Source of the DNA: Elusimicrobia bacterium HGW-Elusimicrobia-3
GTDB lineage: Bacteria; Elusimicrobiota; Elusimicrobia; Elusimicrobiales; UBA9959
Length of the DNA stretch: 64,000 bases
Assembly (NCBI GenBank): GCA_002840355.1
Contig: PHAL01000001.1
Span: 62,001-126,000, forward strand
Reading direction: 5' to 3'
Position numbers and translations under genes: made by a program. Below, piece after piece: positions 18,513-35,957 of this stretch. Within the stretch, counting starts at the first letter, position 1, and every line of letters starts with the position of its first letter. The notes beneath the pieces were generated by a model. It worked only from the letters and a program-made list of their open reading frames with translations. It had not been told where the DNA came from and ran no database searches.

Positions 18513-19550
18513 ATGAACATAATCAATAGACCAGTAAAACTTGCCGTATGGCTTGACACCCCATACCAGAAATACGACTGGTTTAATCCGAAAAATCCTT
18601 TAAACTGCGACGGATGGCTTGAGCCGTTCTTCCGTATCAAAAGAGCAATAGAACAAACAGGCGGAATCTGCGATACGCAGAACTATTACCTATCTCGTGG
18701 AATAATCCCGGATATCGTTTTATTTCTCGATATTCCTGCCCAGCCGGTTGCACGATTGATCGGGGAGTGGGACGCTACTGTTCGCAAATGGCTTTTTATC
18801 CAAGAGTCAGAAGTAATTATCCCTAGAAACTGGGATATGCAAAGGCATGTCCAGTTTGAAAAAATATTTACCTGGGATGATAGCCGCGTAGACAATGAGA
18901 AGTATTTTAAACTTAATTATACACACGCTTTCCCGAAGGTAATCCCGCAAGATGCCGCTGTAAGGAGAGGATTCTGTGTAGTAATCGCTGGCAATAAACG
19001 CTCATCTCATCCCTTGGAGTTGTATTCCCGCAGAATTGAAGCAATACGGTGGTTTGAAAAACACCATCCCGGGGAATTAGATCTTTATGGTCGCGGCTGG
19101 GATGAATACCTGTTTACCGGTAGCCTGCCTGTCCGGGCTCTTAACCGGTTTAAGCCTCTAAGGCGCTTGCTGGCTCCGAGATTCCCGTCTTACAAAGGAG
19201 AAACAGCGCAGAAGCGGACAGTGTTGCAACAGTACAAGTTCTGCATTTGTTACGAGAACGCCGTGTTCCCTGGGTATATTACTGAAAAGATATTCGACTG
19301 CTTCTTTTCAGGGGTTGTTCCGGTGTATTGGGGCGCTCCGAACGTGTTAAGCCATATCCCTGCAAACTGCTTTATTGATAAACGGTCTTACAACTCATAT
19401 GAAGAGCTCTATTTTAAAATGTGCAGTATGACCGAAAAGGATTTTGCCGAATATCTTGAGGCTGTCAGATCGTTCCTGGCAGGAGCCAGCTCCAGGCAAT
19501 TTTCTGCGGATGCCTTTGTGGAAACCTTACTTGCTGCGGTGGTTAAATGA
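18513..19550 (+). CDS. Glycosyltransferase family 10 (fucosyltransferase-like)
   Basis: The 345-residue protein carries the GT10 signature CYENAVFPGYITEKIFDCFF followed by GVVPVYWGAPNV, the donor-binding region of bacterial and animal alpha-1,3/4-fucosyltransferases, and an N-terminal WLDTPYQKYDWFNP acceptor domain. The neighbouring gmd-manC-fcl genes provide GDP-L-fucose, which fits. A side-chain fucose on the O-unit is the likely product; linkage and acceptor are unknown. First gene wholly inside the lower-GC block. Confidence 0.88.
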   Translation: MNIINRPVKLAVWLDTPYQKYDWFNPKNPLNCDGWLEPFFRIKRAIEQTGGICDTQNYYLSRGIIPDIVLFLDIPAQPVARLIGEWDATVRKWLFIQESEVIIPRNWDMQRHVQFEKIFTWDDSRVDNEKYFKLNYTHAFPKVIPQDAAVRRGFCVVIAGNKRSSHPLELYSRRIEAIRWFEKHHPGELDLYGRGWDEYLFTGSLPVRALNRFKPLRRLLAPRFPSYKGETAQKRTVLQQYKFCICYENAVFPGYITEKIFDCFFSGVVPVYWGAPNVLSHIPANCFIDKRSYNSYEELYFKMCSMTEKDFAEYLEAVRSFLAGASSRQFSADAFVETLLAAVVK

Positions 19551-21043
19551 ACAGGGACTTTTTAATCCTTAGTACTGGCAGAATAATACAAAGCGCTATC
19601 GGAATTGTTTCTATCCGGTTGCTGACATCCCTGCTTTCCCCGGCAGAGGTCGGCAATTATTATCTTATTTTTGCCGTTATCGGATTTTGCACTCTTACCT
19701 TCATCAGCCCTCTCGGCTTTTATATGAACCGGAAGCTGCATGGCTGGGCAGAGCATAGAATTGCCGTATCGCGGTATAAGAGATTGCATCACTACCTGCT
19801 GCTCGTTTTTATCCTCTCGTTCTTTGCTGTCTTTCTGCTAAATAAAACAGTGGGAATTGGCGGCTCACTTGGCGCCCTTCAGTTTGCACTGATAACTGGC
19901 CTGTTTCTATACCTATCCACTTGTAACCAAGCCATTATACCGGCTTTTAATATGTTGGGGAGAAGAATACATTTCGTTGTGTTCATGGCGTTGACCCTCT
20001 GTTTAGGCCTTCTCTTTTCTATACTGCTGGTAGAATTAGTGTCCCGTAGCGCTTTCTACTGGGTTCTGGGTCAGGTAATTGCACTCGGTGTTGTTGCGAT
20101 TATTGCTTGGTTTTATTTTGGGGAAGTTTTAAAGAGTTACTCTCCCACAAATACCGTCTCTGGTCCGGAACCTGAGCCAATCAGGCAGATATTTTCTTTC
20201 ATATGGCCTTTGGGTCTGACTTTCTTTTTTATGTGGGGGCAAAACCTTTCTTACCGCATTATTGTCGAGAAAACAGCCGGTTTGGAATTTCTTGGCATGC
20301 TCGGTGTAGGGTTCGGTATCGCGGCCGGTATGGCTGCCGCAATGGAATCTGTGGTCCAGCAACTGTATTTTCCGTTATTCTATGATGGGATTAATACTTC
20401 TGACCCGGTTAGAAGGACTCAGGCCTGGAATTCCATGGCAAAGGCGACACTACCCCTGTATGCGGCTTTTGCAGTGATGGTGTCGTGCCTTTCTCCTTTC
20501 CTGATGAAACTGCTTGCCGGGGAGCGGTTCCATGCTTCATACCTATTTCTTCTCTGCGGCGCGTGGGTTGAGTTCTTCCGTATGTCAAATAACATTCTCG
20601 CCGGAGTAGCTCATTCTGAAATGCAAACCAGGCATCTGGTCAAATCATATTTTGCAGGAGCTAGTATTGCGGCTGGCGGCACTTTCCTGGCTGTGCAGCA
20701 TCCGGATCGGGCGACACTCATTCCATTTGTGCTCATATTGAGCGGCCTGGCTACTGTCTCCGTGATGTATTTTGACATGAGAAAACTGATGCGCCTGCAC
20801 GTATTCACGAAAGAGCTTTTGTTTTCAATTCTGCTGTCGCTCCCCTTTCTTGCGGCGATATTCCTTTACCCGTATCAGACTGATATGTATGTTGCGTCCG
20901 GAATTGTCTTTGCTTTTGGCGCATATTTCCTTTTTTCTCAGTATAAACTTAATCAAGATATAGTGTCGGGAAGAAAGAAATCTGCTTTGCCTGAGGTAAT
21001 ACCTGCCGACTCTTCTGGCGCACAGGGTCGAGATAGTGTCTGA
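19547..21043 (+). CDS. Wzx-type O-unit flippase
   Basis: A 498-residue polytopic membrane protein with about 12 hydrophobic spans across the full length and the polysaccharide-transporter N-terminus DFLILSTGRIIQSAIGIVSIRLLTSLLSPAEVGNYYLIF. Expected to move undecaprenyl-linked oligosaccharide units across the inner membrane. It overlaps the GT10 gene by four bases. A second flippase-like domain occurs in the fusion gene at 25314-27779. Confidence 0.85.
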   Translation: MNRDFLILSTGRIIQSAIGIVSIRLLTSLLSPAEVGNYYLIFAVIGFCTLTFISPLGFYMNRKLHGWAEHRIAVSRYKRLHHYLLLVFILSFFAVFLLNKTVGIGGSLGALQFALITGLFLYLSTCNQAIIPAFNMLGRRIHFVVFMALTLCLGLLFSILLVELVSRSAFYWVLGQVIALGVVAIIAWFYFGEVLKSYSPTNTVSGPEPEPIRQIFSFIWPLGLTFFFMWGQNLSYRIIVEKTAGLEFLGMLGVGFGIAAGMAAAMESVVQQLYFPLFYDGINTSDPVRRTQAWNSMAKATLPLYAAFAVMVSCLSPFLMKLLAGERFHASYLFLLCGAWVEFFRMSNNILAGVAHSEMQTRHLVKSYFAGASIAAGGTFLAVQHPDRATLIPFVLILSGLATVSVMYFDMRKLMRLHVFTKELLFSILLSLPFLAAIFLYPYQTDMYVASGIVFAFGAYFLFSQYKLNQDIVSGRKKSALPEVIPADSSGAQGRDSV

Positions 21044-23865: not shown

Positions 23866-25317
23866 ATGCTGGCAAATATTCGCGAGTCTAGCACCATGTC
23901 CCGTATCGCGGTGGGCATTCCGCTTTTCATTATAGTTGTGTTGGCGGGAATTACAGCCCGGGTTTATCCCGGTAGCCTGGTCGTTTATCTGCTTTTTACT
24001 ATAGTCTTTAACACCCTTTTGTTCAGCGGCATAAGCGATAAACGTATATTCTTTGACACTTTTCTGGGGTTATTTCTTTGGTTGGGGTTTTGGTTTAAAC
24101 TATCCGTAGGGATTTCGTTCATGCATGGACAATTCGGTGAACCGATAGGGGGTTTTGATTGGTCCGGGGCGGCATATGACCGAGCTCTCATTGTCGCCTC
24201 AATTGCGGGGATAGCTTTTTTAGTCTCCCAGGCTTTTCGCAAATATCTTTTCGCCCGCGTAACAGAGTCGAGGGAGTCGGATAGTCTGGCGCTCGAGTCA
24301 TTCTATCTAAAGCACCGCGCTCTGATACTTTCAGCATTTGCTGCGCTGGTTCTTTTCTTCTCCATTTCCAACCTTATACTCGGAGTATACCAGCGCGGTC
24401 TAACTCCGAGAACAGTATTGCCTTTCGGTTTGTCCGGGGTGTATACGCTGATGCTTCTTTTTGGGCTTGCTTCTGTTTCAGCCGTCATACTTAACATTGA
24501 GCTAAAAAGAAAATCAGCCCCATATTTGGTTTCCTTCCTGTGTGTGTTAGAGTGTTTTCTTTCGAATGTTTCCATGTTTAGTCGTGGGATGATACTTAAC
24601 GGGACCGCCCTGGTTCTGGGCGCACTTGAACGCATGAAAAGAACAGGGCGAAGTCTTTCCCTGAAGTATGGCCTGATTGCTATTACTTCCTTCGTGATTA
24701 TCTTTTTATTTTCGGTTGTAACTGTTAACTATATCCGCCTTTTTACTTTCAATAAAACACCTGCTTCCGCGGAAGCCCCCGTTATGCCGGACCGGTCTGT
24801 GGCGAATTCCACCCCGCTGCGGTCTTTTATTAACCGGTGGGTGGGGATAGAAGGCGTGCTGGCCGTTTCTAGCCATGCAGGACTTGGCTGGGGATTGTGG
24901 CATGAGGCATGGGGGGAGAGATATTCCTCATCTGGGACAAGTCTCTATGACAGTAAAATAGTTGCCCATGGTAATAATTACCTGATTGGCAATATGGAGG
25001 GAAAGCATTTTATTACCTTGCCGGGACTGATCGCTTTCCTGTATTATCCCGGCAGTAAATGGTTCCTTTTCCTGGGAGCTTTCTTGGCCTATGCGCTGGC
25101 CGCGCTTATCGAAGTATTTGTTTTTAAAGTGGCCGGCGGCAACGTAATCCTCTGCTCTCTGATCGGGCAGGTCTTGGCAAGCCGCTACGCCCACTTCGGG
25201 TATGTCCCACGGCAGGGGTATCTCTTGCTTGCGGGTGTTCTCGGAGTCGCTCTTTCCATATTTGTCTTTGAATGGTTTATCTCCAATAGGGCCGAGGCGG
25301 AACGGAGGGCGCAGTGA
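23866..25317 (+). CDS. Wzy-like oligosaccharide repeat-unit polymerase
   Basis: A 483-residue membrane protein with roughly 11-12 hydrophobic segments. The loop with FSRGMILNGTALVLGALE and the later NRWVGIEGVLAVSSHAGLG resemble the SRG and RWxGxEG blocks of O-antigen polymerases, which join lipid-linked repeat units in the periplasm. The start at 23866 has GGGGGA eleven bases upstream; an ATG at 23896 is possible. It overlaps the next gene by four bases. Confidence 0.72.
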   Translation: MLANIRESSTMSRIAVGIPLFIIVVLAGITARVYPGSLVVYLLFTIVFNTLLFSGISDKRIFFDTFLGLFLWLGFWFKLSVGISFMHGQFGEPIGGFDWSGAAYDRALIVASIAGIAFLVSQAFRKYLFARVTESRESDSLALESFYLKHRALILSAFAALVLFFSISNLILGVYQRGLTPRTVLPFGLSGVYTLMLLFGLASVSAVILNIELKRKSAPYLVSFLCVLECFLSNVSMFSRGMILNGTALVLGALERMKRTGRSLSLKYGLIAITSFVIIFLFSVVTVNYIRLFTFNKTPASAEAPVMPDRSVANSTPLRSFINRWVGIEGVLAVSSHAGLGWGLWHEAWGERYSSSGTSLYDSKIVAHGNNYLIGNMEGKHFITLPGLIAFLYYPGSKWFLFLGAFLAYALAALIEVFVFKVAGGNVILCSLIGQVLASRYAHFGYVPRQGYLLLAGVLGVALSIFVFEWFISNRAEAERRAQ

Positions 25318-27779
25318 CTATAAAATCCTACCTGTTCCCAGCGGCATTTGCTTTTAACGGTTTTTCACTTTCCCTCTTGGTTGTTATCTCTGGTTTGTCC
25401 GGGGCTTCCTCCTTGGCCGCGGATCTTTCCTTGGCGCAAGCGTCGATGATAGCTGTGTTTTTCAGTCTTTCGGCAAATGCCAGGAACCTTATTCTGAAAG
25501 CGTCGGGAGAGGAAACCGAGCGGTCTTTGTCGCAAATGCGCGGCATTATGGCGCCGGTTCTCGCTTGCATCGCTTTATTCCTCTCTATCCACATCTCCCA
25601 GGTAGACATTTCTCTTTCTCTGGCAATTGTCTGCCGGCAACTTTCTGAATGGTTCTCTGAAATCGAACTTGCGCATGATGAAAAGGGTGCCAGATACGCT
25701 TCGGCAAAACGCTACCTGTATCTATCAATTCCGTCTCTGTTTGGGAGTATCGCCGCGCTTCTGTTCTTACCATCCCTATTTCTGCCCATGCTGTTCCTCT
25801 GGGCGTTGTTACCGCTTGCCTACTGTATTCCTGGTATACGCCGGATTCTGAAGACTATGGGGCATGTCTCAATAGATTGGCGGAAACTTATCCCGAACTA
25901 CGCGTCAACTTTTATCATCGGGACCGTTGTGCTTTTCTTCCGGCTTTTGATCGCGGGTTTCTCAGGGAAAGAAACTGCAGGGCAGCTATTTACCGCTTTC
26001 GCCATTGGCAGCCTTATCGGATCTGTATATGAAAAAACTATTGGCCCCAGTCTGGCTGTTTCTCAATCATTAAGTAAGACAAAGGAGTTAATTTCCAGGG
26101 CGGCCTGGGGGATTCCTGTGCTGGGGATGGGAATTATAATCTTCCTTCTAGCCGCATGGGAACTGCCGGCATATTTGGCTACCCATCTGACGCTTTTCTC
26201 CGCTTTAGGCTTTTCGTTAGTAGGCGGTTTTATAATGGTCGGGGCGCAGGAGATAAAAATATCGTTGCTGCATTCTGAGTCCAGAGATGACGTATTTATG
26301 GGGGATCTGGTTGCAAATTTCGGCATACTGCTCTCCGTACCTGTGGTGTATTTGCTTTTCGGAGAAAAAGCCTTTGTCGCTCTTTTTTTGATCAATTCTC
26401 TGCTCGTATATTTCAGTTATTGGCTTATTAGCGGCAGGACCGGGTTAAAGGTTACGCCTAGGCTGGAATCTTATCTGCATATCTTAACGGCCTTTGCAGT
26501 GCTGGCCCCGGTCTTTTTCCAGTTATCATCCGGGATATATCATGGCCGGCTTGAAGTGTATGATTGGGGCGGCGCCTTAGGCATGTTGCCGTTGCCACTC
26601 TCCATGTTCTTGTGCTTTCCGCTTATCCTATTCATGCACTCTTTGCGCCGGTTTAGATTCTTTTCCATTTTCACTTTCTTAATTCTCAGCACGATGCTTT
26701 TGGGGACTATTCTTTCTTCTGCCGGGGATACTTTTGCGGCAAGAGATAAGGTTCTGCTGTCTTTGCAATGCATTATTCCTTTTTTTGGGCTTATTCTGGC
26801 TGAACATGCCGGAGCTGATGAAACTTTTTTGCGCAGAATGGCGAAAGTCTTTCTTTGGGTCACTGTGATGATTGCGGGAATGCAGATTCTCGTTGCTGTG
26901 GTGTCTGGCCTGCTTCGTTTAAGTCCCGATTTATACCTGTTCAGCATATACGGGAATTCGCAATATGTGGCGGTTGTAATGGTGTCTGCGTTCCTTATAG
27001 GGCTGATTTCACTATATCCTTTAATGGAATTTAGCGGCAGCAAGTCGCCAATTCTGTTCTTGCCTATAATGTGCCTATATGTGGCGTTGTCCTGGTCAAT
27101 GCTGGCTATCGGGTTACTCGCGTTCGGAGTGGGGGTGTTCTTGTCGCTTAATAGGTTTAATAAGATAATCGGGTTGTCGCTGCTGGTCGGCCTTCTCGCT
27201 TTTACCGGTGTGTACGGGGTTGTTTTTCACTATAAGGGAGATTTTGCATTAATGAAACAGGGGTCTCATGCCAAGTTTGTTGATTTGCGCGAAAGAGCAA
27301 ATTCACTTGAGGCACCCATCAGTCCTGTCACAACGCCGCCTCCCACAAGTGCCGGAGCACTTCCCACAAATATCCATGAACGCGTCTCTATTTGGAAGTT
27401 TTATGCCGGGTCTATTCTGAATTCAGACATTCAAGGCATTCTGTTCGGGCATCCTAAACCGCCCCCTCGGCAGCAGTACCCCAGCGCGCATAATTACTAT
27501 TTGGATGTGATGTATAATTTCGGTCTATTCACGCTGCTTCCGGTTCTGTCGCTGCTCTTCTATACTGTCCTGTCAGTCTGGAAATCAAGAAGAATATTTG
27601 CGGATAACCACTACGCTGCGGCTTTAGCCTCGATGCTTTTCTTTATGCTGTTTGTGGAAAACTTATTTAAGGTGGGACTCAGGCAACCGTACTCCGGTAT
27701 ATATTCTTTTTTCCTTTGGGGGTTGTTGCTCTCATTCCTGCGTCATAAGTCATTTTCTGCGCCAAAGGTGGTTCCATGA
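25314..27779 (+). CDS. Fusion of a Wzx-like flippase domain and an O-antigen ligase/polymerase-like domain
   Basis: An 821-residue protein, almost entirely hydrophobic, from a GTG start with the strong ribosome site ACGGAGGG and a four-base overlap with the gene before. Residues 1-378 look like a polysaccharide-transporter half: about 10-12 spans with FFSLSANARNLILKASGEE near the N-terminus. Residues about 385-815 look like an O-antigen ligase/polymerase: multiple spans, a large hydrophilic loop about 645-725 rich in proline, and SAHNYYLDVMYNFGLFTLLP (about 724-743), the block typical of WaaL/Wzy_C proteins. There is no internal stop or frame change. A fusion would combine export with transfer or polymerisation. 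Confidence 0.7.
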   Translation: MTIKSYLFPAAFAFNGFSLSLLVVISGLSGASSLAADLSLAQASMIAVFFSLSANARNLILKASGEETERSLSQMRGIMAPVLACIALFLSIHISQVDISLSLAIVCRQLSEWFSEIELAHDEKGARYASAKRYLYLSIPSLFGSIAALLFLPSLFLPMLFLWALLPLAYCIPGIRRILKTMGHVSIDWRKLIPNYASTFIIGTVVLFFRLLIAGFSGKETAGQLFTAFAIGSLIGSVYEKTIGPSLAVSQSLSKTKELISRAAWGIPVLGMGIIIFLLAAWELPAYLATHLTLFSALGFSLVGGFIMVGAQEIKISLLHSESRDDVFMGDLVANFGILLSVPVVYLLFGEKAFVALFLINSLLVYFSYWLISGRTGLKVTPRLESYLHILTAFAVLAPVFFQLSSGIYHGRLEVYDWGGALGMLPLPLSMFLCFPLILFMHSLRRFRFFSIFTFLILSTMLLGTILSSAGDTFAARDKVLLSLQCIIPFFGLILAEHAGADETFLRRMAKVFLWVTVMIAGMQILVAVVSGLLRLSPDLYLFSIYGNSQYVAVVMVSAFLIGLISLYPLMEFSGSKSPILFLPIMCLYVALSWSMLAIGLLAFGVGVFLSLNRFNKIIGLSLLVGLLAFTGVYGVVFHYKGDFALMKQGSHAKFVDLRERANSLEAPISPVTTPPPTSAGALPTNIHERVSIWKFYAGSILNSDIQGILFGHPKPPPRQQYPSAHNYYLDVMYNFGLFTLLPVLSLLFYTVLSVWKSRRIFADNHYAAALASMLFFMLFVENLFKVGLRQPYSGIYSFFLWGLLLSFLRHKSFSAPKVVP

Positions 27780-28987: not shown

Positions 28988-29878
28988 ATGTTAAAAACAC
29001 CGCGCATACTGATACTCGGGGGAGGAGGCACGCTGGGCCATAAGCTCTGGCAGGTACTGCCTACCCGTTTCCCGCACACTTTCGCCTCTATCCGCAAAAA
29101 GCGGGATTTCTACGCTAAATGCGGTCTCTTCGCCGGTCCTAATGTCATCGACGGGCTGGACCTGCGGGACTTCGCCCGCGTCAACGCCGTGCTCGACGAA
29201 ATAAAGCCCTCGGTCATCGTGAACTGCGCCGGCGTAACGCTGCGCAGCAAGGAAGCCCAGGACAAGAATTCCGCCATTTCCATAAACGCGCTGCTGCCGC
29301 ACCGGCTGGCCGAGTGGTGCTCCCGCTCCGGGGCGCGGCTGATACATTTCAGCACGGTCTGCGTCTACGACGGCAAGAAGGGCGGCTATACCGAGGAAGA
29401 CCCGCCCGACGCCCGCGACCTGTACGGCATGACCAAGATCCTGGGCGACGTGACGGCGCCCTTCGCCCTGACGCTGCGCTCCTCTTTCATCGGCCGCGAG
29501 ATCTTCGGCGGCGCCGAGCTGCTGGAGTGGTTCCTGGCGCAGGAGGGGAAGACCGTGAAGGGCTTCCGCAAGGCGCTGTTCACCGGCCTGACCACCAATA
29601 AGCTCGCCGAGCTGGTGGGGGACCTTATAGAGAACCATCCCGGCCTCAACGGGCTTTACCATGTCTCCAGCGAGACGGTCTCCAAGTATGAATTGCTGAA
29701 GCTGATGAAGGACGCCTACAACCTGGACGTGCAGATAGTGCCGGAGGAAGGGTTCGAGATGAAGCGCGACCTGGACGGCAACAGGTTCGCCAAGGCTACG
29801 GGCTTCGTCTGCCCGCCCTGGAGCCGGCTGATGGCCGAGATGGCCGCCGACAAGACCCCGTACGCCGAGTGGCGCTGA
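28988..29878 (+). CDS. RmlD-like nucleotide-sugar reductase (WbvR-like)
   Basis: A 296-residue SDR: RILILGGGGTLGHKLWQVL, HFSTVCVYDG, YGMTKILGD (YxxxK), and LTLRSSFIGRE. Similar in plan to RmlD. Placed directly before a UDP-GlcNAc dehydratase/epimerase and a 2-epimerase, it best fits the 4-keto reductase that gives UDP-L-RhaNAc in the L-QuiNAc pathway (WbvR); the L-FucNAc pathway uses a different, cupin-fused reductase (CapF/FnlB), which this is not. Assignment is by context and family. Confidence 0.8.
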   Translation: MLKTPRILILGGGGTLGHKLWQVLPTRFPHTFASIRKKRDFYAKCGLFAGPNVIDGLDLRDFARVNAVLDEIKPSVIVNCAGVTLRSKEAQDKNSAISINALLPHRLAEWCSRSGARLIHFSTVCVYDGKKGGYTEEDPPDARDLYGMTKILGDVTAPFALTLRSSFIGREIFGGAELLEWFLAQEGKTVKGFRKALFTGLTTNKLAELVGDLIENHPGLNGLYHVSSETVSKYELLKLMKDAYNLDVQIVPEEGFEMKRDLDGNRFAKATGFVCPPWSRLMAEMAADKTPYAEWR

Positions 29879-29902
29879 CCAGCCCGGATAAAGGAAAAGC
29901 TT

Positions 29903-30916
29903 ATGCCTAACGTGAAGAACAAGACCATATTGATAACCGGCGGCACCGGTTCCTTTGGCCACGAGCTGCTGAAGACGATAATGGACAAGGATTTCAAGGA
30001 AGTGCGCATCTTCAGCCGCGACGAGCTGAAACAGGAGCACATGCGCATACAGCTCAACAATCCGCGCGTGAAGTTCTATATCGGCGACGTGCGCGACCGC
30101 GACAGCGTGGACGCCGCGATGAAGGGCGTGGACATGGTGTTCCACGCCGCGGCCCTCAAGCAGGTGCCGTCCTGCGAGTTCTTCCCGATGCAGGCCGTGA
30201 TGACCAATATCTTCGGCAGCCACAACGTGGTGGAGTCCGCCGTGCAGCACAATGTGGGCAGCGTGGTGTGCCTGGGCACCGACAAGGCCGTCTACCCCGT
30301 GAACGCCATGGGCATGACCAAGGCGCTGATGGAGAAAGTGGCCCAGGCCGCCTGCCGCGGCCTTAAGGAAACCGACACCCGCGTCTCCACGGTGCGCTAC
30401 GGCAACGTGATGTGCTCGCGCGGTTCGGTGATTCCGCTGTTCATCAAGCAAATAAAAGAGAACAAGCCGATCACCGTCACCGACCCCGGCATGACGCGCT
30501 TCCTGCTGCCGCTGCCAGACGCCATCAAGCTGGTGCTGTTCGCTTTCACCAACGCCAAGCAGGGCAACATCTTCATCAAGAAGGCCCCGGCCTGCACCGT
30601 GGGCGATCTCGCCGAGGCGCTCAAGGAACTCTTTAAGTCCGACGTGCCGGTAAAGACCATCGGCATCCGCCACGGCGAGAAGATCTACGAGACGCTGGCC
30701 ACCATGGAAGAGCTGCGCCGCGCCGAGGACATGGGCGACTACTTCCGCGTGCACATGGACGGACGTGACCTGAACTACAACAAGTATTTCACCGAAGGCG
30801 ACAAGAAAGAGGCCAAGGTGTCCGACTACACGTCGCACAACACCGAGCGCCTGAACGTCAAGCAGGTCAAAGCGATGCTGCTGAAGTTGCCGGAAGTGGT
30901 CTCGGAACTTAAGTAA
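29903..30916 (+). CDS. UDP-GlcNAc 4,6-dehydratase/5-epimerase (WbvB/CapE/FnlA family)
   Basis: A 337-residue SDR with ILITGGTGSFGHELLKTIM, HAAALKQVPSCEFFP and the unusual catalytic motif around LGTDKAVYPVNAMGMTKALMEK, where methionine replaces the tyrosine of YxxxK. These are marks of the CapE/FnlA/WbvB family, which makes UDP-2-acetamido-2,6-dideoxy-4-keto-L-hexoses from UDP-GlcNAc. Length matches. The next two genes carry the pathway on. Confidence 0.93.
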   Translation: MPNVKNKTILITGGTGSFGHELLKTIMDKDFKEVRIFSRDELKQEHMRIQLNNPRVKFYIGDVRDRDSVDAAMKGVDMVFHAAALKQVPSCEFFPMQAVMTNIFGSHNVVESAVQHNVGSVVCLGTDKAVYPVNAMGMTKALMEKVAQAACRGLKETDTRVSTVRYGNVMCSRGSVIPLFIKQIKENKPITVTDPGMTRFLLPLPDAIKLVLFAFTNAKQGNIFIKKAPACTVGDLAEALKELFKSDVPVKTIGIRHGEKIYETLATMEELRRAEDMGDYFRVHMDGRDLNYNKYFTEGDKKEAKVSDYTSHNTERLNVKQVKAMLLKLPEVVSELK

Positions 30917-30937
30917 AGCGACTAGCACGGAGAATTT

Positions 30938-32071
30938 ATGCCTATAAAACTGATGACTATCGTGGGGACCAGGCCGGAGATCATAAAGCTCAGCCGCGTT
31001 ATGCACGAGGCCGAGACGCACCTGGACCACGTGATTGTGCATACCGGCCAGAATTACGACTACGAGCTCAATGAAATCTTCTTCAAGGAGCTCGGCATCC
31101 GCAAACCGGACTATTTCCTGAACTCCGTAGGCAAGACGCTGGCCGAGACCATAGGCAACATCATAGCCAAGGCCGACGAGGTGATGGAGAAAGAGAAGCC
31201 CGACGCCATACTGCTCTACGGCGACACCAACAGCTGCCTGAGCGTGATGCCGGCCAAGCGCCGCAAGATCCCCGTCTTCCATATGGAGGCCGGCAACCGC
31301 TCTTTCGACCAGCGCGTGCCCGAGGAGCTCAACCGCAAAGTGGTGGACCACCTCAGCGACATCAACATGACGCTCACCGAGCACGCCCGCCGCTATCTGC
31401 TGGCCGAAGGCATAAGGCCCGAGACCGTGATAAAGACCGGCTCCCCGATGAAAGAAGTGCTGGCTTTTTACATGCCCAAGATCCTCAAGTCCGACGTGCT
31501 CAAACGCCTGAAGCTCAAGGACAACGCCTACTTTGTGGTGAGCACCCACCGCGAGGAGAACATAGACAGCCCCGAGAATTTCAAGAACCTGCTGGAGTCC
31601 CTCAACGCGCTGGCCAAGAAATACAATATGCCGGTGATAGTCTCCACGCACCCGCGCACCCGCAAGAAGCTCGAGGAGCTGGGCATGAAGGGCCTGGACA
31701 AGCGCATCAGCTTCCTCAAGCCGCTGGGCTTCTACGACTATGTGAAACTGCAGCTCAACGCTTTCTGCGTGGTTTCCGACAGCGGCACGATAACCGAGGA
31801 GTCCACCCTGCTCAATGTGCCCGCTGTCACCATACGCCAGGCGCACGAGCGCCCCGAGGGCATGGACGAGGGCACCCTGATCATGTGCGGCCTGAAGGCC
31901 GAGCGCGTGCTGGAATCCGTGGCCGTGGTGGTGAAGCAGCATTCCGCCGCCAAGCGGCAGTTTCGCATGGTGGGGGACTACGACACCGACAACGTTTCCA
32001 AGAAAGTGCTGCGCATAGTGCTGAGCTATACGGACTATATCAACCGCACCGTCTGGCGCAAAACCAACTGA
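30938..32071 (+). CDS. UDP-HexNAc 2-epimerase (WbvD/FnlC/WecB family)
   Basis: A 377-residue protein of the UDP-GlcNAc 2-epimerase fold: LMTIVGTRPEIIKLSRVM, HTGQNYDYELNEIFF, YGDTNSCLSVMPAKRRKIPVFHMEAGNR, VVSTHREENI and SDSGTITEESTLLNVPAVTIR. In the L-QuiNAc and L-FucNAc routes this family inverts C2 at the last step. With an RmlD-like reductase upstream, UDP-L-QuiNAc is the better guess. Confidence 0.92.
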   Translation: MPIKLMTIVGTRPEIIKLSRVMHEAETHLDHVIVHTGQNYDYELNEIFFKELGIRKPDYFLNSVGKTLAETIGNIIAKADEVMEKEKPDAILLYGDTNSCLSVMPAKRRKIPVFHMEAGNRSFDQRVPEELNRKVVDHLSDINMTLTEHARRYLLAEGIRPETVIKTGSPMKEVLAFYMPKILKSDVLKRLKLKDNAYFVVSTHREENIDSPENFKNLLESLNALAKKYNMPVIVSTHPRTRKKLEELGMKGLDKRISFLKPLGFYDYVKLQLNAFCVVSDSGTITEESTLLNVPAVTIRQAHERPEGMDEGTLIMCGLKAERVLESVAVVVKQHSAAKRQFRMVGDYDTDNVSKKVLRIVLSYTDYINRTVWRKTN

Positions 32072-32078
32072 GGTTCCG

Positions 32079-33284
32079 ATGCCGGAAAAACTGAAGGTTT
32101 TAATAGTAACCGAAAGGTTTTACCCGGAGGAATTCATTGTTAACGACCTGGCGGCCGAGTGGGCCGCCGGGGGCATGGCGGTGGACGTGCTGACGCAGGC
32201 GCCCAGCTACCCCGCCGGGCGGCTATTTGCCGGCTACTCCAACGCTTTCTTTTCCTCGGACAACTGGAAGGGAATAAACATCTTCCGCTTCTTCACCGTC
32301 ACCGGCTACCGAGATTCGCTGCTGCTCAAACTTCTGAACTATTTGAATTTTGCCTTCACCGGCACCCTGGCCGCGCTGGTAAAGGCGCGCGGCTATGACC
32401 GCATCTTCGTCTACCAGACCGGGCCGCTGACGCTGGCTATACCGGCGGTGATCGCGGGCCGGATATACGGCATACCGGTGACGATCTGGACTCAGGACAT
32501 CTGGCCGGACATGGTGTACTCCTATGGTTTTAAGCGGACGCGCCTGCTGGACTGGTTCCTGGGCCTGATTATCCGTTTTGTCTACGCCAACTGCTCCGAG
32601 ATATTGGTTTCCTGCGAGGGCTTTGCCCGGCGCATAGAGGAATATGTGCCAGGCAGGCAGATAAAGCATTTTCCTAACTGGCCCACCGTTGTGCCTGACG
32701 GGGGGGTGGAACGCATGCCGCTGCCGGCCGGTTTTAATTTTACTTTCGCCGGGAATGTGGGCAAGCTGCAGAACCTGGAGAATATACTGCGCGGCTTCGC
32801 TCTGGCCGTAGCGAAGCAGCCGGAGCTCAGGCTTAATATTGTCGGCGACGGCTCCCACCTGGAAACGCTGAAAACCATGGCTAAGGAAGGGAGCATCCCC
32901 GGCGTTACTTTCTGGGGGCGGCATGCCAGCCACCAGATGCCGGCCTTCTTCAGGGCCAGCGACGTGATGATAGTTTCGCTGAGCAATACGCCCGGGTTGA
33001 ATTTGGTGGTGCCGGCCAAATTCCAGGCCTACCTGGCCTTTCATAAGCCGGTATTTGCTGTAATTAACGGCGAGGTAAAAGACCTGGTGGGCAAACATTG
33101 CATAGGGCTGAGCGCGGACCCGGATAGTCCCGAAGCCATACGCGATGGGTTTTTAGAATTTTATTTCAGCAACCAGGGCGGCACGAATAATTTTGCCGCC
33201 AACGCCCGGCGACTGCTCGAGACTGAATACGACCGCGCGCTGATAATCGCAGGCATGCGCGCCCGCGTGGCGGCGGCCAAATAG
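32079..33284 (+). CDS. Glycosyltransferase family 4, WbuB-like
   Basis: A 401-residue GT4 with LIVTERFYPEEFIVNDLAAEW, YQTGPLTLAIPAVI, WTQDIWPDMVYSYGF and NFTFAGNVGKLQNLE; these N-terminal blocks recall WbuB-type L-FucNAc/L-QuiNAc transferases. It follows the trio that would make such a donor, seven bases downstream. It likely adds the 6-deoxy-L-HexNAc as the second sugar of the unit, onto the lipid-linked first sugar. Confidence 0.87.
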   Translation: MPEKLKVLIVTERFYPEEFIVNDLAAEWAAGGMAVDVLTQAPSYPAGRLFAGYSNAFFSSDNWKGINIFRFFTVTGYRDSLLLKLLNYLNFAFTGTLAALVKARGYDRIFVYQTGPLTLAIPAVIAGRIYGIPVTIWTQDIWPDMVYSYGFKRTRLLDWFLGLIIRFVYANCSEILVSCEGFARRIEEYVPGRQIKHFPNWPTVVPDGGVERMPLPAGFNFTFAGNVGKLQNLENILRGFALAVAKQPELRLNIVGDGSHLETLKTMAKEGSIPGVTFWGRHASHQMPAFFRASDVMIVSLSNTPGLNLVVPAKFQAYLAFHKPVFAVINGEVKDLVGKHCIGLSADPDSPEAIRDGFLEFYFSNQGGTNNFAANARRLLETEYDRALIIAGMRARVAAAK

Positions 33285-33312
33285 ACTATAATTGATTTAT
33301 GGCGGGGATAAA

Positions 33313-34716
33313 ATGCTGATATTCAGGTGGCGCAGGCTTTTCCTATTCCTGGGGGATGTTGCCCTTTTTTACGCCGCGCTGTGGCTGGCGCTGACGGCGC
33401 GCCGCTTCACTATTGTCCCGCTGGATTTCTACCTGCAGCACGTTAAGGTGTTCTCCGTCTTCCTGCCGGTGTGGACCGCCGTGTTCTATGTGATGGGGTT
33501 CTACGACCTGCGCCGCATTAACCGCTTGGTCAACCTGATTAATATTAGCCTGATCTCATTTGTAATCAACCTGGCCGCTGCCAGCGCCGTCTTTTACGCT
33601 TTTTACCTGCAACTCGGACTTACGCCCAAGACGAATTTACTGCTTACCGTGGTGTTCCTGCACGTGCTGGCCACACTGTGGCGCCGCGTGTGGACGCGCG
33701 TAGTGCTCTCTAAAATTCTGGTACAGAAGGTCGCTTTCCTGGGCACTAATCCGCTGATAGAAGAGATAAAGCGGGACCTGCCGGTGACCCCGCATTTGGG
33801 CTTCACCGTGGTGCCGCTGCCGGAGATGGGGAAGGTAAATTCTTCCGACGGCTACTGGCGGCCTAACGGCCGCTGCTGCGTGGATCTGGCCAGTAAGGTA
33901 GACGTGCTGGTGGTGGACGCCGAAGAGGCAGAACGCAACCCTGCCGTGGGCGGGCTGATGATGTCCACCGCCGTGATGGAAGAGATACCGATAATTACCC
34001 ACCTGGACTTTTACGAGGACCTTTACGGCAAGATACCACCGGACTCGGCCGCCAAACCCAGCTGGCTACTGAGCAATGTGCTGCACAAGAGCAACCAGTT
34101 CTACGCCGTATTCAAGCGAGGGCTGGATGTATTTGGCGCCGTGGTCGGTCTTGTGCTGACCCTGCCGCTTACCCTTACGGCTTACATGGCCATAAAAATC
34201 GAAGGCGGTCTGAGAACGCCCGTGTTCTTTGTTCAAAAGCGGGTGGGGCACCTGGGCCGGCGCTTTATAATCTGGAAATTCCGCACTATGGTGGTAGGCG
34301 CCAGCAAGGCCGGGCCGCTGTACAAAGAGGAGCGGGGGGATTCGCGCATAACCAAACTGGGGAAGTTCCTGCGCGGCACCCGGCTAGACGAGATACCGCA
34401 GCTCTGGAACGTTTTAAAGGGCGATATGTCCCTGGTGGGGCCTCGCCCCGAGTGGACTCGCGAGGTGCGCATACTGGAGAGCAGCGTGCCGCATTATCAC
34501 CTGCGCCACCTTATAAAGCCCGGCGTTACCGGCTGGGCGCAGATAAATTATCACGCCACTTCCAGCCAGGAGGAATCGGTGGAGAAGCTCCACTACGACC
34601 TCTATTACGTTAAGAACATGTCCCTGGCTTTGGACCTGGGTATTGTTTTAAGGACTTTCCGCAGGATATTCCAGAAAGACTCGGTTATGGCCGCGAGGGC
34701 GGCCATGCCTTCCTAG
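33313..34716 (+). CDS. Polyprenyl-phosphate glycosyl-1-phosphate transferase (initiating)
   Basis: Starts O-unit assembly by moving a sugar-1-phosphate to undecaprenyl phosphate. The 467-residue protein has about five N-terminal membrane spans, a Rossmann-like middle part (VAFLGTNPLIEEI), and a C-terminal bacterial sugar transferase domain with KRGLDVFGAVVGLVLTLPLT, WKFRTMVVGA, LDEIPQLWNVLKGDMSLVGPRPE and ITGW-like GVTGWAQINYHA. WbaP/WcaJ type. The ATG at 33313, after GGCGGGG, is chosen over a TTG 21 bases upstream. It converges on the ligase-like gene, overlapping by four bases. Confidence 0.93.
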   Translation: MLIFRWRRLFLFLGDVALFYAALWLALTARRFTIVPLDFYLQHVKVFSVFLPVWTAVFYVMGFYDLRRINRLVNLINISLISFVINLAAASAVFYAFYLQLGLTPKTNLLLTVVFLHVLATLWRRVWTRVVLSKILVQKVAFLGTNPLIEEIKRDLPVTPHLGFTVVPLPEMGKVNSSDGYWRPNGRCCVDLASKVDVLVVDAEEAERNPAVGGLMMSTAVMEEIPIITHLDFYEDLYGKIPPDSAAKPSWLLSNVLHKSNQFYAVFKRGLDVFGAVVGLVLTLPLTLTAYMAIKIEGGLRTPVFFVQKRVGHLGRRFIIWKFRTMVVGASKAGPLYKEERGDSRITKLGKFLRGTRLDEIPQLWNVLKGDMSLVGPRPEWTREVRILESSVPHYHLRHLIKPGVTGWAQINYHATSSQEESVEKLHYDLYYVKNMSLALDLGIVLRTFRRIFQKDSVMAARAAMPS

Positions 34717-35957
34717 ACTGTTTCTTTTTCAGCAGCGGCAGCTAAAGCGATCGCCATGAAAATGGCGAAGGAGGTGTGCACGTGCTGGAAAGAGATCTCT
34801 GTGAGATTCACCACATAGAAAGCGGGCAGGGCGCATAGCGCCCAGAGGGCGTAAGGGCTGGCCGTGGCCTTGAAGCGCCGGGCCGCGAATATGAACATGG
34901 TTAAGAAGAGCAGCAACAGCGCGCCCAGGCCCAGCAGGCCGCGCTCTGCTGCCTGGTGCACATACAGGTTATTGAGCGTTCCGTATATGCCTTGCTCCGG
35001 GAAAGGATCGGGGTGATACTTCTTAAAAACCTTTTTCACATTGTCGGGCCCCACGCCTACTACTGGGTGGGCTTTGAACATTTTATATCCCAGTTTCCAA
35101 AGCTCCAGGCGTACGCTGATACCGGTATTTCTCGAGTTCTCGGCGAAGTCGCCCTGCCGGTATTCAGTCATATCGGCCAGGCTGCCGCGCAGGGAGGGGG
35201 TGAGCGCTGTCAGGACCGCGCCGGCGGCCAGCAGCGCGCCAGCGAGTATGGCCAGCTTTTTCCGGGTGCCTGAGGCGAAAGCGAACATGAAGGACAGGCC
35301 GGCGGCCAGGCCGAGGTAGGCGCCCCTGGTCTGGCTGAGTGCCACTGCGGCCAGGATGAGGGCGGCGGCAAGGGCGTATAAAAAACGTTCTCTCTTTGAG
35401 TCCGTATTCAGGGGAAGAAGCAGTCGGCTAAAGGCCAGTAGGAAGGCTATGGTCATCGCCTCGCCGTAGCGCACGGCGTTCATCAGCACGCCGGCACGGG
35501 CGACATATAAGTCATTGGCGACAACCGAACGCACAACTTCGGTTATACCGAAGATAGCCGATATCGCGGCGGCCGCTATATATACAGCCGCCAACTTGGA
35601 GAGATGCTCCTTCTTCACCGCCAGCAGCAGCGTGGACAGGCAGACATACTTGAGGAAATCGGAGTTGAGCTGGCCCAGGCCCTTGGCGGGGTAATAGGCG
35701 GTAAGGGCGGTGAGCAGGCAGACGCCGAGGTATATCATCCACGGGACGAAGAGGGGATGGCTGGCCAGGGCGGGGAGGATGGACCGCAGGGTATGCTCGC
35801 GGTGCTTCTTTATCAGCAGGCCGATTATGGCCAGGAACAGGGCGATCTGCACTACCGTGACCGAGAAGACCACCGAGAAAGCGAAAAGGCAGAGGGCGGC
35901 TGAAATTAGGTTGTCGGGCGAGCGCCAGGAGGGGGACTGAACCGTTGTGGTGGTCAT
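34713..35957 (-). CDS. O-antigen ligase-like protein (WaaL family)
   Basis: A 414-residue membrane protein with about 11 spans and the Wzy_C/O-antigen ligase region: a hydrophilic loop with NTGISVRLELWKLGYKMFKAHPVVGVGPDNVKKVF and YGTLNNLYVHQAAERGLLG. Family members either join finished polysaccharide to lipid A-core or polymerise units. Being separate from the variable block and convergent to the initiating transferase, I favour ligase. Translation probably starts at the very 5' end of the mRNA, because a -10 (TATAAT on the minus strand, 35971-35966) lies eight bases before the ATG. Confidence 0.82.
   Translation of the reverse strand: MTTTTVQSPSWRSPDNLISAALCLFAFSVVFSVTVVQIALFLAIIGLLIKKHREHTLRSILPALASHPLFVPWMIYLGVCLLTALTAYYPAKGLGQLNSDFLKYVCLSTLLLAVKKEHLSKLAAVYIAAAAISAIFGITEVVRSVVANDLYVARAGVLMNAVRYGEAMTIAFLLAFSRLLLPLNTDSKRERFLYALAAALILAAVALSQTRGAYLGLAAGLSFMFAFASGTRKKLAILAGALLAAGAVLTALTPSLRGSLADMTEYRQGDFAENSRNTGISVRLELWKLGYKMFKAHPVVGVGPDNVKKVFKKYHPDPFPEQGIYGTLNNLYVHQAAERGLLGLGALLLLFLTMFIFAARRFKATASPYALWALCALPAFYVVNLTEISFQHVHTSFAIFMAIALAAAAEKETV

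Follow-up and report, generated by a model that had tools for sequence, protein, structure and literature searches.

Flipping and polymerisation of surface-sugar units are normally carried out by separate proteins. Whether cargo is physically handed from Wzx to Wzy remains, to our knowledge, an open question, the proteins being separate and their interactions hard to show. The window analysed here, a 64,000-nucleotide stretch of the 2.88 Mb genome of Elusimicrobia bacterium HGW-Elusimicrobia-3, poses this question within a single gene: does one open reading frame encode both a flippase and the enzyme that acts on the flipped unit, and what would such a protein (FUS below) do? The features that bear on it first are:

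25314 to 27779, plus strand: FUS, 821 residues, a MOP flippase-type N half followed by a Wzy_C-type C half
25314 to 26450, plus strand: N half of FUS (residues ~1-379), 12 predicted TM helices, MOP-superfamily fold (AF2, Foldseek, hhalign and residue conservation)
26457 to 27776, plus strand: C half of FUS (residues ~382-821), ~12 TM helices, O-antigen ligase/polymerase of the Wzy_C, clan GT-C1 type (PF04932, hhalign)
27483 to 27524, plus strand: motif SAHNYYLDVMYNFG of the C half (residues 724-737)
23866 to 25317, plus strand: the partner membrane protein PART, 483 residues
27776 to 28918, plus strand: a GT4 glycosyltransferase, here a separate gene

A sequence-only reading of this DNA had placed a single uninterrupted frame of 821 residues at 25314-27779, and these coordinates are exact, with no internal stop. 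The frame opens with GTG, just downstream of a GGAGG motif that makes a good Shine-Dalgarno site, and shares 4 bp with each neighbouring gene (GTGA, 25314-25317; ATGA, 27776-27779), which ties it to PART on the 5' side and to the GT4 gene on the 3' side. Direct searches with the window protein against Pfam, NCBIfam, PHROGs and PDB sequences returned no match, and a viral fold library gave chance matches only.

The AlphaFold model of FUS, computed with 28 homologues (mean pLDDT 82.4, pTM 0.84), places about 12 helices within residues 2-372. When the model was compared with the PDB using Foldseek, the best 40 matches were all MOP proteins (MurJ, WzxE, MATE), with probabilities mostly of 1.00, and the first 49 rows consisted almost exclusively of such structures; WzxE (9g9n) aligned over 422 columns with a TM score of 0.64 by target length. 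The E-values for the 821-residue query are marginal (4.6e-3 at best), and a profile comparison was therefore added. Against a MOP profile assembled from PF01943 hits, neighbouring Wzx proteins and E. coli WzxE, hhalign scored the N half at 75% in local mode (E 2.6e-5) and 91% in global mode (E 1.4e-7), while reversed and crossed controls for both halves stayed below 1%. Eight charged residues are invariant in the N half (R57, R76, R108, E112, E116, E123, R210 and D331). Arg210, present in 27 of 27 sequences, aligns in every alignment mode to Arg239 of WzxE, the sole fully conserved positive residue of that protein and a member of a periplasmic arginine pair whose partner, R44, is essential (PMC11706664). 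R57 lies in the same region as WzxE R44 but is aligned 7 residues off, in a part where the alignment is weak. Fold and profile both assign the N half to the MOP superfamily, with flipping itself an inference. It shares with Wzx, WzxE and MurJ the 12-TM MOP fold, a counterpart of WzxE R239 at R210 and a location in a polysaccharide cluster; unlike them, it is too divergent for Pfam, it is followed by a second, enzyme-type domain of ~440 residues, and it carries a distinct invariant set (R108/E112/W113/E116/E123).

From residue 382 onward the model contains a further ~12 helices, with a predicted periplasmic loop at residues ~640-727 that includes a low-confidence stretch (640-682). Aligned with Wzy_C proteins, the C half scores 96% and 98% in hhalign. 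PF04932 reaches 22.9 bits on the window protein (E=9.6e-5), under its cut-off of 31.7, and 40.6 bits, above the cut-off, on the Herbaspirillum member of the family; no WaaL structure is among the best 50 Foldseek matches listed for the whole of FUS. The sequence-only reading had joined a polysaccharide-transporter-like early half to a later half with the O-antigen ligase/polymerase block SAHNYYLDVMYNFG and a large periplasmic loop, and the MOP fold, the separate Wzy_C-type domain and the predicted loop bear it out on each point. It had further asked for the membrane spans to be counted, which gives ~12 per half, and for the same architecture to be sought elsewhere, which yields 23 further full-length members in unrelated genomes. 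The finding it had named in advance as fatal, a first half that is not MOP or two halves that make up one ligase fold, did not materialise: the N half is MOP and the Wzy_C domain is distinct.

Whether this domain polymerises or ligates can be approached through its conserved residues. O-antigen ligases employ two arginines and one histidine, and the BP-Pols and inverting polymerases of clan GT-C1 mostly have Asp or Glu where the O-ligases have His (PMC10920833). By position in the alignment, R690 and H726 of FUS likely correspond to the phosphate-binding Arg265 and the acceptor-activating His313 of the O-ligase; for its Arg191, the FUS C halves offer no clear conserved counterpart. The window protein has both R690 and H726, which are lost in a minority of family members, and of the 26 C halves whose motif is intact, 7 have Tyr, Phe, Leu or Thr in place of H726. 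What an O-ligase requires, conservation of two diphosphate-binding arginines and a catalytic histidine, is thus not met across the family. R719 and D731 are each conserved in 25 of 26 C halves, and N727 is also near-invariant. Because D731 and R719 are near-invariant and H726 is not, and because the polymerases of the clan mostly use Asp or Glu, a polymerase is favoured over a ligase to lipid A-core, with modest confidence: the role is inferred from residue conservation, without a comparison against GT125-GT129 models.

The likenesses run in both directions. Like WaaL (Wzy_C, CAZy GT121), the C half has ~12 TM helices and, close to its C-terminal end, a long periplasmic loop, and most members contain the RxxxW and HN motifs; unlike WaaL, its His and Arg vary across the family, it is joined to a flippase fold, and it is encoded inside a biosynthesis cluster. 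With the GT-C1 inverting Wzy/BP-Pol enzymes (GT125-GT129) it shares a late periplasmic loop bearing a conserved Arg and acidic residue (R719, D731), a likeness not drawn from direct comparison with their profiles, and also the location in a cluster. The CAZy study of these families does not describe such a fusion in the passages that were searched, and the terms fusion, fused and flippase do not occur in it.

To define the family, ~85,000 species genomes were scanned in an initial survey with patterns from the C-half motif, and full-length relatives outside the phylum were found in a Methylophilaceae bacterium, Herbaspirillum sp. CF444, Pseudomonas mosselii, a Verrucomicrobiales MAG and a deltaproteobacterial MAG. 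The full-length members total 24, from Elusimicrobiota, Verrucomicrobiota, a deltaproteobacterium, Pseudomonas, Herbaspirillum and relatives, and Methylophilaceae. Because the 23 others lie in unrelated genomes, neither misassembly nor a frameshift accounts for FUS. The family is widespread but sparse, occurring in ~1-2% of sampled genomes overall: 3 of 32 in the source genus, 6 of 299 in the genus Pseudomonas, 7 of 344 in the Herbaspirillum family, 3 of 150 in the Methylophilaceae, 2 of 297 in the phylum of the deltaproteobacterial MAG, and 5 of 369 (one of them a short match only) in the class of genome G343. Viral contigs, phages, plasmids and E. coli genomes were searched without finding a relative. 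Trees of the two halves have 12 of 21 splits in common, and each of the 10 strongly supported C-half splits is strong in the N-half tree too, with no strong conflict between the trees; pairwise identities of the halves correlate at 0.87, with family means of 39% (N half) and 35% (C half). Since the trees agree, one ancient fusion event followed by joint inheritance would be the simplest reading of the sequences. A C half without an N half occurs in one genome (G345, L019:3813-5117, plus strand), where it starts at the domain boundary and adjoins its own PART gene, and a partial second C-half copy is present in another (G607); a lone N half was not found in the genomes surveyed. In Pseudomonas mosselii, a second, frameshifted FUS copy (L016:3986-6456, plus strand) stands in tandem with the intact one, either a sequencing error or a pseudogene.

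PART (~480 residues) lies near FUS in 20 of 25 genomes, as the next gene in 17, and is absent from the vicinity in five. It is polytopic and conserved across phyla, numerous arginines and tyrosines in it are invariant, and its conservation exceeds that of FUS (36-48% identity to the window copy). Searches of Pfam, NCBIfam and the PDB revealed no relative, and no similarity emerged when PART was compared with profiles of MOP, Wzy_C and E. coli WzyE. PART offers a lead towards a new family of membrane proteins for polysaccharide assembly.

The remaining genes of the window that bear on function are:

19547 to 21043, plus strand: a separate MOP/Wzx-like protein of the same cluster (own MOP profile, E=1.8e-11)
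28988 to 29878, plus strand: FnlB-like reductase
29903 to 30916, plus strand: FnlA-like dehydratase
30938 to 32071, plus strand: FnlC/WecB-like 2-epimerase
32079 to 33284, plus strand: WcaI/WbuB-like glycosyltransferase, conserved near FUS
33292 to 34716, plus strand: polyprenyl glycosylphosphotransferase, the initiating enzyme (TIGR03025, 318.7 bits, over cut-off; PF02397)
34713 to 35957, minus strand: a separate Wzy_C protein, an ordinary ligase/polymerase (PF04932, E=2.3e-20)

The genes from 28988 to 32071 probably form a UDP-L-FucNAc-type sugar pathway that is conserved beside FUS, and the FnlB-, FnlA- and FnlC-like enzymes recur together with the WcaI/WbuB-like transferase in most FUS clusters. 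The gene set resembles the O-antigen modules that combine FnlA/FnlB/FnlC with WbuB, with the same sugar pathway and transferase; the modules known so far encode Wzx and Wzy as two distinct proteins. In Burkholderiales clusters, the genes beside FUS encode an initiating transferase of the WecA type, a phosphohexomutase, heptosyltransferase I and a Kdo transferase, a set that identifies an LPS O-antigen locus. A separate MOP/Wzx protein is found in 11 of 25 clusters, including the source window, where it has no Pfam or NCBIfam match and is recognised by our custom MOP profile only. In 13 clusters (18-60 kb examined, some ended by contig ends) no other MOP protein is recognised, with the polytopic proteins inspected as well, and FUS is therefore the sole flippase candidate in the examined regions; the remaining cluster (G345) has no more than a weak MurJ-like match, which falls within an ORF of 971 residues.

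Beside the computed observations (the architecture, its recurrence, the co-inheritance of the halves, the transport-type residue conservation and the gene context) we set an inference about function, for which there are no activity data. We incline, if only slightly, towards FUS being a natural fusion of a Wzx-type flippase with a Wzy_C/GT-C1 domain that flips an O-unit and then transfers it, probably with PART. As a plausible pathway, most likely for an O-antigen-like surface polysaccharide whose repeat unit includes an L-FucNAc-type sugar (the substrate, too, is inferred), the N half would move the undecaprenyl-diphosphate-linked unit across the inner membrane, and the tethered C half would then transfer it on the periplasmic side, probably together with PART acting as a subunit, by polymerisation more likely than by ligation to lipid A-core. 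Direct hand-over of the flipped unit to the transferring site is plausible, as an inference, but is complicated by the separate Wzx present in some clusters, that of the source window included. Counting against the flip-then-polymerise mechanism are this separate Wzx in 11 clusters, the loss of R690 and H726 in a minority of members, the lack of a clear counterpart of Arg191, the marginal Foldseek E-values and the absence of WaaL from the best 50 Foldseek matches listed.

More tentatively, the family may constitute a multi-phylum assembly machine in which flippase and polymerase share one polypeptide and work with PART, each unit being channelled from the glycosyltransferase through the flippase to the polymerase and never set free in between; this remains a possibility that we rate as short of probable. 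In some Elusimicrobiota, the cytoplasmic GT4 enzyme would be joined to the machine as well. In two congeners of the source organism (L003:361-3912 and L004:337-2757, both minus strand), FUS runs on into a C-terminal GT4 domain, i.e., a flippase-polymerase-glycosyltransferase triple fusion. Genome G028 carries the N half, the C half and GT4 in one ORF (1,183 aa from the likely ATG), whereas in G027 two contigs end in the pieces, one in the N half and the other in the C half plus GT4, the pattern that an assembly gap within a single gene would leave.

Two other assignments of the flipping, polymerising and ligating steps are not excluded. The first, which we regard as unlikely, makes the C half a WaaL-type O-antigen ligase, with FUS exporting and ligating and PART serving as the true Wzy polymerase. 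Wzy_C/PF04932 is indeed the O-antigen ligase family, and PART, conserved, polytopic, rich in invariant Arg and Tyr and without a named family, is in several clusters the only other large polytopic protein besides the initiating transferase; a Wzy of this kind would suit polymerases notorious for extreme sequence diversity (PMC10920833). Such a ligase needs its catalytic His, however, which the 7 substituted C halves lack; the window already has a ligase candidate in its separate Wzy_C protein, and five genomes with FUS have no PART nearby. The second, less credible again, treats the N half as a MOP-fold docking or gating module, with a separate Wzx flipping and FUS polymerising or ligating. 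The 11 clusters with a separate Wzx, the source window among them, agree with it, as do the C half found alone beside its own PART, the partial copy in another genome and the N half that never stands alone. Set against it are an N half whose conservation equals or exceeds that of the C half, the eight charged residues that never vary in it (the counterpart of WzxE R239 among them) and the 13 clusters with no other recognised MOP protein. To the weakest alternative, that the halves are one large ligase fold or that FUS merely reflects chance read-through, or two genes joined during assembly, we give almost no credence: only the absence of a named Pfam/NCBIfam domain from the window protein, a general point, favours it, and it is refuted by the MOP fold match, the separate profile matches of the halves and the 24 independent full-length members.

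Neither FUS nor PART is named in Pfam or NCBIfam. Our search of the open-access literature, with subscription papers mostly outside its scope, found no report of a Wzx-Wzy or flippase-polymerase fusion, and none is described in the searched passages of a 2025 Wzy review and a 2024 CAZy polymerase study; this supports, without proving, that FUS is undescribed so far. On the preferred reading, as a flippase joined to a transferring domain, evolution may have brought two steps of surface-sugar assembly together in one molecule, and the conservation of a covalent fusion as one piece in several phyla argues, on evolutionary grounds, that both steps gain from coupling. FUS also offers a single-polypeptide target for structural work.

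An ORF of 971 residues in the deltaproteobacterial MAG (L134:16478-19390, plus strand) has a MOP/MurJ-like second half (own MOP profile, E=6e-9) and a first half that resembles a membrane glycosyltransferase by eye, and may be another flippase fusion.
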